From: Ignavibacteriales bacterium | Lineage (GTDB): Bacteria; Bacteroidota; Ignavibacteria; Ignavibacteriales; Ignavibacteriaceae | NCBI GenBank assembly: GCA_015709675.1 | Contig: CP054182.1 | Coordinates: 1,591,448 to 1,655,447 of the forward strand | Direction: 5' to 3' | DNA: 64,000 nucleotides | Shown here: in pieces, positions 43,045 to 52,043 of the stretch | Numbering within the stretch: position 1 is the stretch's first letter | Layout: each line of letters opens with the position of its first letter | Translations under genes and position numbers: made by a program | Notes under the pieces: generated by a model | Told to the model about the DNA's origin: nothing | The model's database searches: none | Seen by the model: the letters and a program-made list of their open reading frames with translations, nothing else

Positions 43045-43052
43045 TTCTTTAA

Positions 43053-43090
43053 CGGAGGCCGCACCCCGCGGTCTCCGGTATTATTATTTG
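43053..43090 (+). terminator. Stem-loop after alkaline phosphatase
   Basis: CGGAGGCCGC (43053-43062) pairs with GCGGTCTCCG (43068-43077) with one G-T pair, followed by GTATTATTATTT. Nearly the same stem occurs after the third sensor gene (49409-49440). Confidence 0.75.
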
Positions 43091-43277
43091 CCCGGCAGTA
43101 CACATAACTTTATACCCTTTGTCCTAATAACAAATCAGCATTTACCTGATTTAACCCCTTCTTCTCTTAGCTCCCCGGCTTGAATTAACGCTTGCCTAAT
43201 TTGTTTTTGCAGTAAAACCGTTAATCACAAAATTCACAAACGATTTATTTATTTATAATTAAGTTATGTAGAGTTTG

Positions 43278-45194
43278 ATGGTTAAGTGGTTTGAACTGCG
43301 TCCGATTTCCACTCAAGTCTTTAATAAGTACTTAATCTCCTTTCTGATAATAATGATAATTATTATCGGGATTCTCTATGCGCTCAAAGTTAACGGATTC
43401 AAATCGTTTTCAGAGAGTACTTTTCTCTCTTATCAAAAGCAAACATCACTTCTCGATTCTCTTTCTTCCGCTGAAAAGTCATTGTTCAGCGAATACCTCA
43501 GAGCAGCAATAGTAGAAGGCAAGGCTGATATTTCACAAACCAAACCAGCCATGATCAGTGATCTGGATAAGATTGACAGTTTGCTGGCTCAGATTTCTGT
43601 AAAATTAAATAAAGAATATGCGCGGACGTTACATAAGAAGATAAAGAGTTCTTTTACTGATTTCAGAGCGAATATCGGAACTTTGGATTCTCCTGCTAAT
43701 GATATCCAGAGTAAGGAGATTCTAAGATTACATTATGCTGAACTTTCAAAAAATTATCTGTCCCGCCAAATCAGCCTGAATTACCTCAAAAAAGAATTTC
43801 TTTCAGAATGCTTACAGGAACATTCCAGCGCGAATGCATCATACATGGTATCCTCCCTGTGGTTTCTTTTACTTGCGGCATTTATCATTTTGATCTTCTT
43901 ATTTCTTGTATTCTTAATCGGGAAATTGCATGCTGAAATGCAGCAATTAAGTTCAATCCTTAAAAATGAAGTTGTAAAAAGAAAAAGAGATCAGGAGGAA
44001 AATCTTAAAACCAGAGAAAACTATGAGAAAACAGACCGGCAAAGAACAGAATTTATTGAAAAGTTTTGCGGGTCTTTAACAAAGTCCTTAGCTGAAGATT
44101 CAGCACAATCAAGGACTGTAACCGGCTTTACAAGAACAGAAAAAACCGGAAAAATAAAAGAAACCGCGCACCCGTCAAATCAAAGATTAATACATACCAT
44201 TAATCTTGTTTCGAAAATATACAGGAAAAACACATCGTTCTTTCTCGCAAAATTCGTATCACAGGATATTGTGCCCATCTTGAACGAACTTGCCCATAAT
44301 TTCAGAAAAGCTGCAGAAGAAATGTCGCTGCAGTTTACTTATAAAACCGATTATTCAGAAGTCATCATTGAGACGGATAAAGAAATTTTCACTCTGGTTT
44401 TCGAAAGTCTGATACATAATGTGTTTTATCAGATGAGGGAGGGGAGTGTCATACTTGAAGTACAATCCGCAAGAACATACCGGGGAGGCTGTGAGATAAT
44501 CATTTCAGTTACAGCCGCCGGGGCTCAAATTGACAATTTTCATGGGGATGGTCTTTGGAGCGGCAAAACGGAGGTAAGCAATAATGCAGGAAGCCTGAGC
44601 AGTGATCTAGGAGTGGGACTGCCTGTAATTAAAAAATTTGTTAAAAGACTGGGGGGTAATGTGACTATGACGCGGAAGGAAAACCAAAGTATTGTTTTTA
44701 ATGTGAGGTTTGATGTTAAGGAAGAAAATCTGACTGCGTCAGATGAAACAGTAACTCATATTAACCCGGATCAATGGCAGATCCTTGAACCCAGGGATTA
44801 TAAAAAACTGTCCATCCTTTATGTTGAGGATGACGAATTAATCGGAAATTATGTCGCATCGCTTCTATCCGGTATATCGAATATTGATCTTGCGCCAGAT
44901 TCACAGACCGCACTCAGCCTTATCAGAAGTTCAATATACGATATTATCCTTATGGATATACATCTTGGAAATGATTCCGCGGACGGATTAACGCTCACAA
45001 AAAAATTACGGAATTTAGAGGCCTATAAAAACACACCGATTATTTGTATCACCGCTTTTACCATGCAGGGCGACAAAGAAGCATTTCTTGAGCAGGGATG
45101 TTCCCAGTATCTGGCCAAGCCATTCAGCCCGGAACAGTTATTCCGTGAGATTGATAAGGCAGTAAGACAAATGGCGCTGGTGCATAGCAAATAA
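43278..45194 (+). CDS. Sensor paralogue 1: degenerate kinase core with intact receiver
   Basis: The 638-residue protein has TM1 (about residues 19-38), an extracytoplasmic helical domain and TM2 (about 191-214), then a cytoplasmic core and a receiver. Where a histidine kinase has SHELR the sequence reads FCGSL (Gly265 in place of His). The N-box (FESLIHNVFYQMREGS) is degraded and the DTG ATP-binding motif is replaced by TAAG. The receiver (residues about 510-630) is complete: acidic pair in LYVEDDELI, phospho-acceptor Asp560 in IILMDIHLG, ITAF and AKPF. It is the first of four tandem paralogues and cannot be an active kinase by sequence. A TTG three bases upstream is an alternative start. Coding DNA here is AT-richer than in the last paralogue. 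Confidence 0.88.
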   Translation: MVKWFELRPISTQVFNKYLISFLIIMIIIIGILYALKVNGFKSFSESTFLSYQKQTSLLDSLSSAEKSLFSEYLRAAIVEGKADISQTKPAMISDLDKIDSLLAQISVKLNKEYARTLHKKIKSSFTDFRANIGTLDSPANDIQSKEILRLHYAELSKNYLSRQISLNYLKKEFLSECLQEHSSANASYMVSSLWFLLLAAFIILIFLFLVFLIGKLHAEMQQLSSILKNEVVKRKRDQEENLKTRENYEKTDRQRTEFIEKFCGSLTKSLAEDSAQSRTVTGFTRTEKTGKIKETAHPSNQRLIHTINLVSKIYRKNTSFFLAKFVSQDIVPILNELAHNFRKAAEEMSLQFTYKTDYSEVIIETDKEIFTLVFESLIHNVFYQMREGSVILEVQSARTYRGGCEIIISVTAAGAQIDNFHGDGLWSGKTEVSNNAGSLSSDLGVGLPVIKKFVKRLGGNVTMTRKENQSIVFNVRFDVKEENLTASDETVTHINPDQWQILEPRDYKKLSILYVEDDELIGNYVASLLSGISNIDLAPDSQTALSLIRSSIYDIILMDIHLGNDSADGLTLTKKLRNLEAYKNTPIICITAFTMQGDKEAFLEQGCSQYLAKPFSPEQLFREIDKAVRQMALVHSK

Positions 45195-45460
45195 TATGAT
45201 GCCGGGTGTGTAAATAAAATTCGCTGATATCAGTATAAAAATGTTATGTCATTTCTCGTAGTGAATGATTATTTGCGGAGTATTTTTCCCGTTTACCTCT
45301 CTCAAAGATGCGTTCATTATTTGTCGCAACATGCTGTTGCCTGCATCATCCTGTGACACTTTACCTGCTTTCTTTTTGAAAACGTGACAATTCCTGTTTT
45401 TTTAACATTAATCCTTAAGGTTTGTGTGTGCTTGCACTTCCATCGTATTTTAGAACGTTG

Positions 45461-47380
45461 ATGGGTAATACCCGTCTGCTTAAATATTCATATGTCCTGC
45501 TTGGTCTGTTAATTATGACTTTGTCAGCCCTGCTGATCTTCTATACAAATAGTGTAAGTGATCATAATAAAGCCGGGAGTATGGAAATACAAATAAACTC
45601 CAGATTAATGGATTCCCTCGAATACTATGAAGATCTTACCTTCCAAAGGGCTCTGAATGCTTTGCTCGAGAAGGATAGCGGCATTTCATTACTTTTTGAC
45701 GGGGTGTTTGAAAACTATTTTATAAGTATGGAAAATCTTTTACGGGATTTTACAGACGCGGAATTAAAGGATGAAACGAGATCCTTTTTACAAAATACTC
45801 AAAGTAATCAGAAGCAATTGAGAGAAAAAATATTTGCTTTATTGCTTGAGCAGCAGTTTTCGAATGACAAATCATCAGTAGGATATTATGTCGGCAGATT
45901 ATCCGAAATACATTTTACGCATAAAGCTGCAACGGAAGAACTGCGCGGAAATTATCTGGCCAAATTTTCTGAATTAAATGCAAAATCCGCTGATATGTTC
46001 ACATTGTTATCGGCATTTTTGTATGTGATCGGTGTTCTCATCTTATTGCTTTTCATAATTACCGGACTTCTGTTAAGACGGATATTGATCGCAAATCAAC
46101 AGCAGAATATACTTCTGGTCAATGAAAAGTTGAAACTGAAAAACATTCAAAGAGAATTAATTGAGGCTAAATCTGATTTACTCGAAACAGAACGCTATAA
46201 ATCTGTTTTTTCGACAATCATCAGCAGTGAATTCAGGATAAAGATGGCGGAAATTCTTGAATGCTCGGAGCAATTAATTAATGATACGGACAGTAAAACA
46301 ACTGAAACCGGGCAATTAATAAGACATTCTGCAAGCAGCTTAGTTCAAAAATTTAACCACAATCTAAGAGTATGGCAGATAAGTTCAAATTACCGGAAAA
46401 TTACCTATGCAATGCAAGATGTAATTGAGATCGTTAAAGAAGTAAAAATCAAACATGAGGATTTTGCCAGGAGTAAGCACCTGCAATTTTCTCTGATTAC
46501 AGATTACCGCGAAGTGAATCTGGATACCGACAGAGAAATGCTTTCTCTAGTGATCGAGAATCTTGTTCATAATGCCATCAATTATACAACCTCTGGCAGT
46601 GTGGAACTTGGGGTTAAAACGGCCAAATCACTCAGAGGCGGTATCGAAGTTATACTATCAGTCAGAGACACGGGAATGGGGATATCACCGTCTGTTCTGA
46701 GCAGCATATTCGATAATGTCCCAAACAAAAATGCGGATGATGATAATCTGATTTTTGGTTTGCAGTTAAGCAAAAAACTGGTGGAATATCTCGGAGGGAA
46801 ATTTCTCATCAAAAGCATCCCGGATTTCGGGTCACTTTTTGAGGTCAGATTCGGTGTCAGCCCCGAGGGTATTATCCCTGATAACAAGCCTGTAACTCAT
46901 CTTGAACCTGAAATTACACTGCTTCTTGAACCGCTCAATAACCGGAAACTACGAATACTTTATGTTGAGGATGAAAGCTTAATCGGAGATTTTGTTTCAA
47001 AAATTATTGCTCCGATTGCATCAATTGATATTGCCGTTGATTCTAAGACTGCATTGCAGTTTGCCTTAAGAAAAAAGTATGATATGATTTTTATGGATAT
47101 CAATCTTGGACCCGACTCGCTTGATGGCATGTCTGTTACACGCGAAATCCGTGAATATGAATATTATAAACATACTCCGGTTATTTGTATTACTGCCTTT
47201 GATCAGCCGGGGGATAAAGCTGCCTTTCTTGAGTTTGGGTTCTCTCAGTATTTGCCCAAACCCTTTACAGCCCCGCAACTATTTGCGGAAATTGAAAAGG
47301 CAATAGAAGTTATTAAAAGACATGAACAGGAACTGAAAATGGAAAGCGCATTTTTACGTATCTCTGCCGGAACAGAATGA
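45461..47380 (+). CDS. Sensor paralogue 2: kinase core without His, intact receiver
   Basis: The 639-residue protein keeps the family plan: KYSY before TM1 (about 11-28), helical extracytoplasmic domain, TM2 (about 180-205), transmitter and receiver. The phospho-accepting His is replaced by Ser256 (IISSEFRIKMAEIL against MSHELRTPMTGIL in paralogue 4). The N-box (IENLVHNAINYTTSG) and DTGMGIS are kept, but the ATP lid and G2 box (GTGLGL elsewhere) have shrunk to NLIFGLQL. The receiver has LYVEDESLI, Asp546 in IFMDINLG, ITAF and PKPF. It probably cannot autophosphorylate. The ATG at 45461 is chosen because KYSY then aligns with the other paralogues; a TTG at 45422 would add 13 residues. Confidence 0.88.
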   Translation: MGNTRLLKYSYVLLGLLIMTLSALLIFYTNSVSDHNKAGSMEIQINSRLMDSLEYYEDLTFQRALNALLEKDSGISLLFDGVFENYFISMENLLRDFTDAELKDETRSFLQNTQSNQKQLREKIFALLLEQQFSNDKSSVGYYVGRLSEIHFTHKAATEELRGNYLAKFSELNAKSADMFTLLSAFLYVIGVLILLLFIITGLLLRRILIANQQQNILLVNEKLKLKNIQRELIEAKSDLLETERYKSVFSTIISSEFRIKMAEILECSEQLINDTDSKTTETGQLIRHSASSLVQKFNHNLRVWQISSNYRKITYAMQDVIEIVKEVKIKHEDFARSKHLQFSLITDYREVNLDTDREMLSLVIENLVHNAINYTTSGSVELGVKTAKSLRGGIEVILSVRDTGMGISPSVLSSIFDNVPNKNADDDNLIFGLQLSKKLVEYLGGKFLIKSIPDFGSLFEVRFGVSPEGIIPDNKPVTHLEPEITLLLEPLNNRKLRILYVEDESLIGDFVSKIIAPIASIDIAVDSKTALQFALRKKYDMIFMDINLGPDSLDGMSVTREIREYEYYKHTPVICITAFDQPGDKAAFLEFGFSQYLPKPFTAPQLFAEIEKAIEVIKRHEQELKMESAFLRISAGTE

Positions 47381-47456
47381 CTTAACAAATTATAATAGTG
47401 ACGTAACCGGTTTATCTGACTCTGTAAATGATGTTTATTACTAAAAGAGGTTTATT

Positions 47457-49388
47457 ATGTCCGATCTGTTAAAGCTGTTTAAATATTCGCGCATCGTTAA
47501 GTACTCTTATCTCACCGTTCTTGCTTTGGTGCTTGTAAGTTATACCGCTTCTTACCTTGCGGTGTCGGGGATAGAAGAGCATCATAATGAGCAGGAATTA
47601 ATGTATGCGACGATTCCTGAAATTCTTACTAAGGCAGAACAGTCTGAGGAGCAAGTATATATGATTGCTCTCTGCGAGCTGATGGAGGGACATACTACAT
47701 ACAGCGAGAACAACAGACAAATGATTACTATTGAGTTTGAACGCCAGGCGAACCTCTGGTCGCAGATTTACACACTGTCGGGTTCATTGCATTTACAAAA
47801 AATATCAGACTCAACTCAAACAGCAAGGGTTTCATACAGAGAAACTATAAGACAGCTTTTAGCCAAGAATACTCCGGGAATAGATGCTGATCAACGTATA
47901 ATGCTCGCAGGAAGCCTTTCTGCAAAATATTCCGAGATGCGCAAAACTTCGGAAGATTTACGAAGTCTTTATCAGGTTAAACTTGCCTCGCTTCATGAGA
48001 GTGAAAGAGAACATCTCGCGGGACATATAGCATGGTATAACGTGCTTGTACTGATCACTATTCCGGTACTTATTTATCTCGGATTTGTACTCAGGAGTGT
48101 GTTCAGGGGTCTTGAGATGCAAAATCAAAAACTGACAGGTGAGATATCAGAAAGGAAAAAAATTCAGGATGAACTTACAATTGCAAAAGAAACTGCCGAA
48201 GAAGCAAACCGCCTTAAAACTGCAATACTGGCAAATATGAGCCATGAGTTAAGGATACCCATGACCGGAATTCTGGGATACGCGGAACTTATTCTGATGG
48301 AAGCACCGAATGACGATATTTGTGAAATGGCTGAAAGACTGAAGTACTCAGCAAACCGCCTTATGACAACTCTCAATCTGATAATAAATCTTTCCCGTGT
48401 TGAATCCGGCAGACAGGTGGTAATACATACAAAAGAAGACCTTTTGGAAATTATTCGTCTTGTCTGTAAGAAGCAAAATGATTTTGCCTCAGGCAAATCA
48501 CTCTATCTCACAATTAAAACTGATTTTATTGCTGTATTCTGCGAAATTGACCGGCAGATGGTTTTCCAGATTATTGAAAACCTGGTCAATAATGCCATTA
48601 AATATACTGAGAAAGGAGGAGTGGTAGTTGAATTATCGTCCGAACAAATTACTGATAATTTTCATGAGGTAATTATCAGGGTCACAGATACCGGTATTGG
48701 TATCAAACCGGAACATATTAATCAAATTTGGGAGCACTTCAGGCAGGCCAGTGAAGGTTACACCAGAAGTTATGAGGGTAACGGTCTGGGTCTGACATTG
48801 AGTAGAAAATATACTGAGCGCCTTAACGGACGGATATCGGTAAAAAGTACCCCTGGTGAGGGTTCAACATTCGAACTGCGTTTTCCTGCTCTTAAGGAAA
48901 ATATCGTAAAAAGAATAGTTATGCGTCCTGTATTTAAGGAAACTGATACCGGTCTGAAAGTGAACCGGAAACCGCTCCTTCTTCTGGTGGAGGACGATCA
49001 AATGTGTGCTGATCTGGCGGCAAGAACTGTTGCTCAAATTTGCAGGATTGATCTTGCTCCTGACTCAGTGACCGCCCTGACGCTTATCAAGAAACATAAG
49101 TATGATATTATCATTATGGATATTAATCTTGGTTTTAAATCTCTTGACGGAATTACCACTACGCAGTTAATCCGGCAAATTGAGGGCTATCAGGAAACAC
49201 CCATCATTTGTGTTACAGCGTTCACCATGCCTGGAGACAAAGAAGCATTTCTTGAAAGCGGATGCACGCAATATCTTGCAAAACCTTATACATCAGAACA
49301 ACTCCTTGCCGAAATTGAAGCCGCAATGGGTATAATAAAGGCACAAGAACAATATCAGGGAAGCAGCCGGAGAATCGCGAAGGATTAA
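47457..49388 (+). CDS. Sensor paralogue 3: hybrid histidine kinase
   Basis: The 643-residue hybrid kinase has TM1 (about 16-36), an extracytoplasmic four-helix-like domain with the shared EQSEEQVYM string, TM2 (about 192-212), a coiled linker (KKIQDELTIAKETAEEANR), and a canonical core. The H-box is ANMSHELRIPMTGILGYAEL (His263), N-box IENLVNNAIKYTEKGG, G1 DTGIGI and G2 EGNGLGLTLS. The receiver has LLVEDDQMC and Asp555 in IIMDINLG. It should autophosphorylate and pass the phosphoryl group to its own receiver. No separate output regulator or Hpt domain lies nearby. Stem-loop after the stop. Confidence 0.93.
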   Translation: MSDLLKLFKYSRIVKYSYLTVLALVLVSYTASYLAVSGIEEHHNEQELMYATIPEILTKAEQSEEQVYMIALCELMEGHTTYSENNRQMITIEFERQANLWSQIYTLSGSLHLQKISDSTQTARVSYRETIRQLLAKNTPGIDADQRIMLAGSLSAKYSEMRKTSEDLRSLYQVKLASLHESEREHLAGHIAWYNVLVLITIPVLIYLGFVLRSVFRGLEMQNQKLTGEISERKKIQDELTIAKETAEEANRLKTAILANMSHELRIPMTGILGYAELILMEAPNDDICEMAERLKYSANRLMTTLNLIINLSRVESGRQVVIHTKEDLLEIIRLVCKKQNDFASGKSLYLTIKTDFIAVFCEIDRQMVFQIIENLVNNAIKYTEKGGVVVELSSEQITDNFHEVIIRVTDTGIGIKPEHINQIWEHFRQASEGYTRSYEGNGLGLTLSRKYTERLNGRISVKSTPGEGSTFELRFPALKENIVKRIVMRPVFKETDTGLKVNRKPLLLLVEDDQMCADLAARTVAQICRIDLAPDSVTALTLIKKHKYDIIIMDINLGFKSLDGITTTQLIRQIEGYQETPIICVTAFTMPGDKEAFLESGCTQYLAKPYTSEQLLAEIEAAMGIIKAQEQYQGSSRRIAKD

Positions 49389-49408
49389 ACAGGTGATGCT
49401 GTTTTTTG

Positions 49409-49440
49409 CCGGAGGCCGCACTCCGCGGTCTCCGGGTTTT
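49409..49440 (+). terminator. Intrinsic terminator after sensor paralogue 3
   Basis: CCGGAGGCCGC (49409-49419) pairs with GCGGTCTCCGG (49425-49435), followed by GTTTTAG. The stem is almost identical to that at 43053, so the two flank the first three sensor genes. Confidence 0.85.
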
Positions 49441-49613
49441 AGATAATTTTTATGTATCTGCCCTATTTATTCTTCTTTAGTCTTCTGTTACTATCGCCTG
49501 CCTCATATGTCTTGCCTTATAGAAGCCGAAAAATTAGTTTAAGTAAGCTCGTATTAAATTTATAATGCAAAGGTCAGTTCAGGGACTGAACTGCTCTCAT
49601 AATCGTGATAGGC

Positions 49614-51506
49614 ATGAAGACAAGAATTTTCCTTAACGCTTCCAGCTCCATTAAATATTCTTATTTGCTCCTCCTCCTGATGATTCTGGCGGCAGGCCTT
49701 CTTTCTTTCTATATCCTGAAAGAATTTGATAAACATATCACTGAGCATGATCAGTTATCAGTAACCCATTTTGAGCTGTTTCATTCTCTTGCCAGATCGG
49801 AAGAGCAGGTTTACCTCATGAGTTTTAATGCGATGACGGACAGCGTAGGGTTTCACTCGGGCATTTATGAGGAACAAATTGCAAATGAATTTCTCCGGCA
49901 GAGTGAAATTATACGGCAGCTTTCAGCAATTACCTCTACCACGGCGAAAATAAAACTGCTTCGTGAGAGCAAACTGCTGATCAGCTCTTACCGGGAAGAG
50001 ATATATACGATCCTCAGAAAATTCCGGGAGAAGAAATCAGGTAATCAGCCGGAGGATTTCACAGGGGATTTGTTTTCTATATATAACAAGCATAAGATGG
50101 CATCCGCGGATATCAGGAAGGAATATGCACTGCAGCTTGCTGAAATGAATAGAGCTGAAGGGAAGGATCTTTCCCGGCTTTATTACTGGCATCTTGCTTC
50201 GGGTGCTCTCCTGATCATTCTGATTGTACTTTTCGGTAATTTCCTCAGAAAGATATACACCGGAATGCAGACGCAGAACAGGATGCTCCTTAACGAGATT
50301 GAAAACAGGGAAAAAATAGAAGAGAGACTCATCAGCGCGAAAGAAGCTGCTGAGGAGGCTAACAGGCTTAAAACCTCTTTTCTGGCCAATATGAGCCATG
50401 AACTAAGAACACCTATGACCGGCATTCTTGGGTATTCCGAACTGCTTGTTCTTGAAGCGCATACAAACGAACTTAAAGAGATGGCCCTTACGGTAAGAGA
50501 TTCAGCTCAGCGTCTGATGCGTACACTGAACCTTATTCTTGATCTTTCACGTATTGATTCAGGGAAGCTGAATATAACCCGCACTCACGCAGATCTGGTG
50601 GAAATGATCAATGCCGTATGCGTTAAAATGGACACTATGGCAAGAAAAAAATCTCTGTACCTTCGTGTCAGGTCAGACTATGAATCAGTTTATTGCGAAA
50701 CAGATCAGCAGATGTTTACCCAGATTATTGAAAACCTGATAAATAACGCGATAAAATATACTGAGGTTGGAGGCGTTGAGGTTGAAATAACATCTGAGGA
50801 TATTGCCGGCGGAAGACGTGATGCGGTTATTACCGTTAAGGATACCGGCATTGGCATTGATGAAAAACATCTTGACCTGATTTGGGAAGATTTCAGGCAG
50901 GCAAGCGAAGGGCATGACAGAAGTTTTGAGGGGACAGGACTCGGGCTTTCGATAACGAAAAAATTTGTTGAGCGGCTTAACGGAAAAATTCAGGTTACAA
51001 GCACTCCCGGCGTCGGATCAAAGTTTGAGATTCGTTTCGGAGTCTTTGCTGAAAACCTGATTCTCCGCAGTCCGGTAAGGCATGCACTGGCAGAACAGCG
51101 CGGTGATTTTACTACAGGCAATGGCAGCAAACATAACATCCTCTATGTGGAGGATGATGATGGAATAGCGACTCTTGTTGCCAGATGTCTTGCGTCTGAT
51201 TATCATGTTGATCATGCACGCAATTCTGAGACAGCACTCAGACTGGTTAAGCAGAACAAGTATGACATAATCCTAATGGATATCAATCTTGGTATTGCCT
51301 CACAGGATGGCATTACAACTACGCAGATGATCCGCAAACTGGACAGTTACAAAAATACTCCGGTTATTTGTATCACTGCATTTTCCATGTCAGGTGACCG
51401 GGAAGCATTCCTTGCTGCCGGATGCACGCAGTATATATCAAAGCCCTTTACCAACGATCAGCTCATCGCGGAGGTGGAGAAGGCAGCAAAAACCATCCGT
51501 TCTTAG
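49614..51506 (+). CDS. Sensor paralogue 4: hybrid histidine kinase
   Basis: The 630-residue hybrid kinase has the shared KYSY before TM1 (about 16-34), the RSEEQVYLMSFNAMTD string in the extracytoplasmic domain, TM2 (about 192-210), a coiled linker and a fully canonical core: ANMSHELRTPMTGILGYSEL (His262), IENLINNAIKYTEVGG, DTGIGIDE and EGTGLGLSIT. The receiver has LYVEDDDGI, Asp556 in IILMDINLG, ITAF and SKPF. It is closest to paralogue 3. GTG at 49605 is an alternative start; the ATG at 49614 is preferred. Terminators and gaps of 76-266 bases separate the paralogues, so each may have its own promoter. Confidence 0.93.
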   Translation: MKTRIFLNASSSIKYSYLLLLLMILAAGLLSFYILKEFDKHITEHDQLSVTHFELFHSLARSEEQVYLMSFNAMTDSVGFHSGIYEEQIANEFLRQSEIIRQLSAITSTTAKIKLLRESKLLISSYREEIYTILRKFREKKSGNQPEDFTGDLFSIYNKHKMASADIRKEYALQLAEMNRAEGKDLSRLYYWHLASGALLIILIVLFGNFLRKIYTGMQTQNRMLLNEIENREKIEERLISAKEAAEEANRLKTSFLANMSHELRTPMTGILGYSELLVLEAHTNELKEMALTVRDSAQRLMRTLNLILDLSRIDSGKLNITRTHADLVEMINAVCVKMDTMARKKSLYLRVRSDYESVYCETDQQMFTQIIENLINNAIKYTEVGGVEVEITSEDIAGGRRDAVITVKDTGIGIDEKHLDLIWEDFRQASEGHDRSFEGTGLGLSITKKFVERLNGKIQVTSTPGVGSKFEIRFGVFAENLILRSPVRHALAEQRGDFTTGNGSKHNILYVEDDDGIATLVARCLASDYHVDHARNSETALRLVKQNKYDIILMDINLGIASQDGITTTQMIRKLDSYKNTPVICITAFSMSGDREAFLAAGCTQYISKPFTNDQLIAEVEKAAKTIRS

Positions 51507-52043
51507 CAGCACAGTGGGATTATGTACACGCCGATGCAGGTCTCAGTAAGGAGGTTCTTGTACCGCTGTTATATGCAGATTACCCGAAGCACGGAACTGC
51601 TTTTCTAAATTACTATCATCTCGAAACCTGAATGATGCAGGTTGAGCCAGGGACAAAACTTTTCTATTCTTTTTAATCTCTTGGCATCATTCCGGATTTC
51701 ACCACCTGCGGCTTCTGAGGTCTCGCTCCGGTTTTGTAATACTCCGGGGGATCCGGCCGCTGAACTGATCTCATCTGATTTAAGGCCTGCAGTCATTTGC
51801 TACGGTTTTCCCTTTTCAATGTCAGCTTTCATCCGGGATATTTTTCCTGAAAGCAAACGCCAGCTCTGAGCATACATCCTCTTCAGAGTTCATAAAGACC
51901 CACTCCTTGATTACCGTTTTAAGATTCCGCTCCGAATGAGAGGTTAAACCTAGGCGGGTTCCATACCTTCGGACCGGTCTTGTTCCCTTTCCATTCGCTG
52001 GCAGTTCAGTCCGCAAAAAAATAAAAATTTATTTTAAAAAGAC
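51507..52043. other. Unexplained 540-base stretch before lexA
   Basis: No recognisable gene, RNA or repeat was identified between sensor 4 and the lexA promoter. Open frames on both strands are short, lack family signatures and are interrupted. GC content is gene-like over much of it (51650-52010), which may point to a decayed gene, probably on the minus strand, but no homology was recognised. Confidence 0.4.

Follow-up and report, generated by a model that had tools for sequence, protein, structure and literature searches.

Why should a membrane-bound sensor kinase that has lost the means to phosphorylate itself continue to carry a receiver domain in working order? The question is raised by four tandem genes, here designated P1 to P4, in a 64,000-nucleotide stretch of an Ignavibacteriales bacterium genome (contig CP054182.1, positions 1,591,448 to 1,655,447 of the forward strand; hereafter the window, to which all coordinates refer). 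The genes form four intact plus-strand open reading frames (ORFs; 43275-51506) encoding proteins of 633-652 amino acids, and share, as a preliminary description of this DNA had it, a single architecture: two transmembrane helices, a helical extracytoplasmic domain, a transmitter and a receiver. Because the domains of P1 and P2 have evolved at sharply different rates, and because their receivers are conserved, we conclude that these two proteins are very probably pseudokinases held under receiver constraint, rather than products of random decay. The four genes are as follows.

P1, 43278..45194, plus strand: putative hybrid pseudokinase; Gly265 in place of the phospho-accepting His, without the G1 Asp and the F box, intact receiver (Asp560).
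P2, 45461..47380, plus strand: putative hybrid pseudokinase; Ser256 in place of the phospho-accepting His, DTG present, ATP lid shortened, intact receiver (Asp546).
P3, 47457..49388, plus strand: hybrid kinase; His263, intact N, G1, F and G2 boxes, Ile in place of Thr at H+4, intact receiver (Asp555).
P4, 49614..51506, plus strand: hybrid kinase, fully canonical; His262, HELRTP, intact receiver (Asp556).

Alternative starts are available for P1 (43275 or 43278, ending at 45194), P2 (45422 or 45461, ending at 47380) and P4 (49605 or 49614, ending at 51506); residue numbers are counted from the ATG starts.

Matches to Pfam HisKA occur in P3 and P4, with none in P1 or P2, and the HATPase_c score falls from 98 bits in P3 and 91 in P4 to 52 in P2 and 20 in P1, the last of these lying below the Pfam cut-off of 26.4. 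The receiver is matched in all four proteins (63-82 bits), each of which has the acid pair, Asp, Thr and Lys. At the site of the phospho-accepting His, P4 has H262, P3 H263, P2 S256 and P1 G265. The N, G1, F and G2 boxes are complete in P3 and P4. P2 has the G1-box Asp (D403, equivalent to D410 of P4 and D411 of P3) and is without the F box, Val standing in place of Phe, and without most of G2, the GxG of the ATP lid being deleted; in P1 the G1 Asp is replaced by Ala (A413) and the F-box Phe by Lys, and the GxG, intact in P3 and P4, is partial (G445, G447). The Mg-Asn of the N box is retained throughout (N378 in P4, N379 in P3, N371 in P2 and N381 in P1). The preliminary description had thus given the residue at each His site exactly, and was right about the receiver residues and the collapsed lid of P2. 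Its account of P1 as the most degraded copy stands for Gly265 and the lost G1 Asp and needs qualifying for the N box, whose Mg-Asn is still present, as is part of G2. Its description of paralogues 4 and 3 as canonical applies fully to P4, and to the His and boxes of P3; at position H+4, however, P3 has Ile (Ile267, codon 48255-48257) rather than the Thr found in P4 and in all 18 of the closest outgroups. The same position is Ile in P2 and Lys in P1. In HisKA kinases H+4 is part of the ExxT/N phosphatase motif, so the phosphatase activity of the kinase P3 may be weak.

Loss of the His is rare in this genome: just one of 45 other aligned transmitters is without it, against two of the four in the array, which indicates that the losses in P1 and P2 are not a matter of chance. 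That single case (L093:1846-4284, minus strand) is an unrelated protein and makes a second instance of an inactive hybrid: its His site holds Ser (SSEIRTP), it matches HisKA but not HATPase_c, and it carries three receivers. A further hybrid kinase of the same genome (L091:852-3539) retains the His and has degraded N, G1 and G2 boxes (DSGIRI), its HisKA score being slightly below the Pfam cut-off.

The contrast between domains is apparent from pairwise identities. Receivers are 51-57% identical in all six paralogue pairs. Identity between P3 and P4 is 64% in the DHp domain and 57% in the CA domain; in every pair involving P1 or P2 it is 15-30% and 25-37%, respectively (22% and 30% for P1 and P4), with the DHp of P1 reaching values as low as 15-22%. 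Branch lengths for transmitter and receiver were then estimated on one fixed tree with 18 outgroups. Terminal branches, transmitter versus receiver, are 4.23 versus 0.33 for P1, 1.56 versus 0.53 for P2, 0.54 versus 0.38 for P3 and 0.20 versus 0.25 for P4. The transmitter branch of P1 is about 13 times its own receiver branch, compared with outgroup ratios of 0.34-2.99 (n = 18, median about 0.9), and in 40 site bootstraps it exceeds 2.0 at the 5% point, with the receiver branch below 0.53 at the 95% point. The receivers of P1 and P2 evolve at rates matching those of the active paralogues and kinases.

Neither P1 nor P2 contains a stop or frameshift in more than 600 codons each, despite saturation of synonymous sites (the proportion of synonymous differences, pS, is 0.73-0.80 between paralogues), and this points to selection on both as whole ORFs. 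The same saturation meant that per-domain dN/dS among the paralogues gave no usable ratio. In the CA codons of P1 and P2, second positions are more alike than third positions (0.60 versus 0.34 for P1 and P4, for example), a comparison that amino-acid-based alignment biases in that direction; the contrast suggests that the CA fold is retained. Identities, branch lengths, bootstraps and open frames together support the earlier proposal that selection has kept the receiver beside a fast-changing transmitter. The companion proposal, that the sensor domain too is under selection, is not borne out, the sensor being the least conserved part of both P1 and P2. Periplasmic identity is 25% between P3 and P4 and 13-17% between P1 and the others; the P1 sensor is barely alignable (shuffle z of -0.3 to 3), and its similarity to that of P4 is no better than that of shuffled sequence. 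Predicted models of P1 and P4 show the extracytoplasmic part as four long helices between the two transmembrane helices. A weak match to PF12729 (4HB_MCP; 15.7 bits, cut-off 27) is present in P1 only, and a search of the sensor profile against the PDB returned just designed bundles and weak coiled coils.

The four paralogues share a common ancestor. A tree of 47 hybrid-kinase cores places them in one group (100/100 support) in which P1 and P2 are sisters (100/99), and their receivers are nearer one another than to outgroup receivers. P1 and P2 also pair (97) in a tree of the receivers alone, in which P1 has no long branch. Given that the two are sisters in both trees, their His losses may represent a single event and should then not be counted twice. 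The receiver tree groups P1 to P3 with a bootstrap of 91, and approximately unbiased (AU) tests reject no alternative branching inside the array; we accordingly make no claim for an ordered loss running from P4 through P3 and P2 to P1.

The surroundings of the array provide some information on its origin. Three further features are needed here.

Insert, 43045..52014, no strand assigned: DNA specific to this lineage, lying between the alkaline phosphatase gene and lexA; about 500 bp of it, 3' of P4, are unmatched.
T1, 43053..43077, plus strand: terminator-like hairpin on the left edge of the insert, 3' of the alkaline phosphatase gene; first repeat copy at 43045-43078.
T2, 49409..49435, plus strand: terminator-like hairpin between P3 and P4; second repeat copy at 49402-49435, 6357 bp from the first.

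The genus is represented by one other genome, G001, and there the array is missing: 104 bp separate the alkaline phosphatase gene from lexA, and the remaining sequence of the locus keeps the same order, at 77-86% nucleotide identity. The array is also absent from the lexA/uppS locus of two genomes of the family (G007 and G019). Searches with the sensor profile found no further members in 59 relatives or in 80 family, 164 order and 395 phylum genomes, and no orthologues were found in GTDB r220 contigs (a single scan with P4 as query), plasmids or viral contigs; nor was a donor found in the genomes searched. Two candidates were rejected: an ORF of similar length (L017, in G027) differs in its N-terminal part, which reads as a PAS-type sensor, and the best sensor-profile matches outside the array, in G024, are chemoreceptor-like proteins. 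The simplest reading is that the array was gained in this lineage, although gain in the genus ancestor followed by loss in G001 is possible. The roughly 500 bp 3' of P4 (51507-52014) match nothing in 41 genomes, including that of the same genus, and are possibly remnants of an inserted element. Flanking genes compared between the two species show dS of 0.86-2.6 and pS of 0.51-0.73. The paralogue pairs (dN 0.50-0.82) all have higher pS, as given above, so that the duplications probably predate the species split and the array probably arrived largely ready-made.

T1 and T2 share a 34-nt direct repeat, 88% identical, that brackets P1 to P3; its 23-nt core occurs twice in the 4.2 Mb genome, at these two sites only. 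A related hairpin stands at the place of T1 in G001. Third-position GC is 0.36-0.38 in P1 to P3 and 0.45 in P4 (mean 0.464, standard deviation 0.038, for 41 other ORFs of the window), and first-position GC is 0.51 in P4 and as low as 0.44 in P1. P1 to P3 are thus set apart from P4 by the flanking repeat and by AT-richness. The repeat is far better conserved than the genes between its copies, and its duplication is therefore probably more recent than theirs. No RNA families were found in the region.

The predicted structure of P1 (mean pLDDT 82.8) has the DHp hairpin, CA core and receiver all present; the model was built from an alignment that includes active relatives and so leans towards the fold of the family. 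Confidence is high for the CA core and receiver and middling for the DHp region (blocks of 61-85); the ATP-lid region (432-443), the N-terminus and the linker between CA and receiver are unordered. A VIA-align search with the whole model returned a list filled by receivers and was uninformative on the other domains. Among solved structures ShkA is the top match to both P1 and P4. After ShkA, P4 is nearest to GacS and P1 to RetS, including the RetS-GacS complex 7n0e, a ranking that the missing lid may partly explain; DivL (4q20) is also among the P1 matches.

RetS has two receivers and a sensor different from those of the array, and the RetS and GacS genes do not lie in tandem. Like P1 and P2, RetS is a hybrid sensor of the membrane with an active hybrid kinase among its relatives, and its receiver can take the phosphoryl group of its partner in the multikinase network of Pseudomonas (PMC5992135, PMC12189002); indeed, RetS lowers GacS output partly by accepting phosphoryl groups on its own receiver (PMC5992135). 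P1 and P2 may work like RetS but, having lost the His, are not members of the RetS type. DivL of Caulobacter is a pseudokinase of histidine kinase (HK) fold, its phospho-acceptor His replaced by Tyr, which has a signalling role and modulates another kinase (PMC5361649); it differs in having PAS sensors and in sensing a separate receiver, DivK~P, whereas P1 and P2 conserve an attached one. Plant ethylene receptors of subfamilies I and II likewise mix canonical and diverged HK domains, some with receivers, in heteromeric clusters (PMC3485614), but are eukaryotic, have an ethylene-binding transmembrane domain and GAF, signal via CTR1 and carry an unrelated sensor. In Corynebacterium, the paralogous kinases ChrS and HrrS heterodimerise in their native form and an inactive ChrS variant still alters signalling (PMC9491836); that variant, however, is a laboratory-evolved truncation of a kinase that is not hybrid and has no receiver.

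What, then, might P1 and P2 do? P4, and probably P3, would autophosphorylate and pass the phosphoryl group to their own receivers. P1 and P2 would be unable to do so, both being without the His, P1 without the adenine-binding Asp and P2 without most of the ATP lid, and selection would have kept their receivers functional. With self-phosphorylation lost and a working receiver kept, a protein of the membrane would need a donor in trans; by ancestry (the principle of PMC8175716) and location, P3 and P4 would be the nearest candidates. P1 and P2 would take phosphoryl groups from an active kinase, or otherwise modulate it, much as RetS acts on GacS, and we regard such a role as the likeliest of those considered, though the case for it is evenly balanced; which protein is the partner, which way phosphoryl groups flow, the mixed dimers and the signal sensed are our inference. 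A more elaborate version, in which a block-acquired set of two active kinases and two receiver-only pseudokinases shares phosphoryl groups within one mixed receptor cluster, the pseudokinase sensors serving as tunable sinks that set the signal level, seems rather doubtful.

Several observations weigh against these proposals. No orthologues were found with which codon-level constraint could be measured by dN/dS. T2 stands between P4 and the other three genes, which need not then share one transcript with it. RetS retains its His and acts as a phosphatase (PMC5992135), while P1 and P2 have lost both the His (Gly265, Ser256) and the H+4 Thr (Lys and Ile). Finally, P1 (LIYL) and P2 (LIFI) resemble one another, and neither P3 (MCLT) nor P4 (GILC), at four positions of the receiver that govern partner choice in HK853-RR468, so the donor need not be P3 or P4. 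These shared recognition residues would suit receivers fed by another kinase or HPt elsewhere in the genome and acting as platforms of a different pathway; the genome has seven HPt domains, most within large hybrid kinases, and dozens of other HK and receiver matches. We nevertheless think this unlikely, given that the four genes are adjacent and paralogous, that their receivers are closer to one another than to outgroups, and that no partner is encoded nearby.

A DivL-like part, in which the dead transmitter dimerises with or binds another kinase and phosphorylation of the receiver is secondary, has precedent in DivL and ChrS (PMC5361649, PMC9491836) and would accord with the DHp hairpin and CA fold of the P1 model and with the codon-position contrast in the CA domains of P1 and P2. 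It too appears improbable: the P1 model is steered by homologues in its alignment, the low DHp identity of P1 is accompanied by changes at all three DHp specificity positions, and what has been conserved is the receiver, which on this account is dispensable. Much the least probable is ongoing pseudogenisation, with receivers that look intact through slower decay or gene conversion. Stepwise loss and the AT-richness that deepens towards P1 are what decay would produce, but the uninterrupted frames at saturated synonymous sites, and receiver rates equal to those of the active paralogues, speak strongly against it. Gene conversion of the receiver was rejected: over the best 129-nt stretch the receiver DNA is just 63-71% identical to the P2 copy, which argues against any recent event.

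About 1% of HKs carry a substituted His (PMC5361649), and bacterial histidine pseudokinases, although known, have been little studied. As a kind of protein P1 and P2 belong with those already described, among them RetS, DivL and the diverged ethylene receptors. What is new is a tandem array that combines two active hybrid sensors with two inactive ones and shows such a contrast in rates; among the genomes searched, this one alone has it. With active and inactive paralogues of the same architecture standing side by side, the question of what a hybrid kinase does after losing self-phosphorylation becomes testable.

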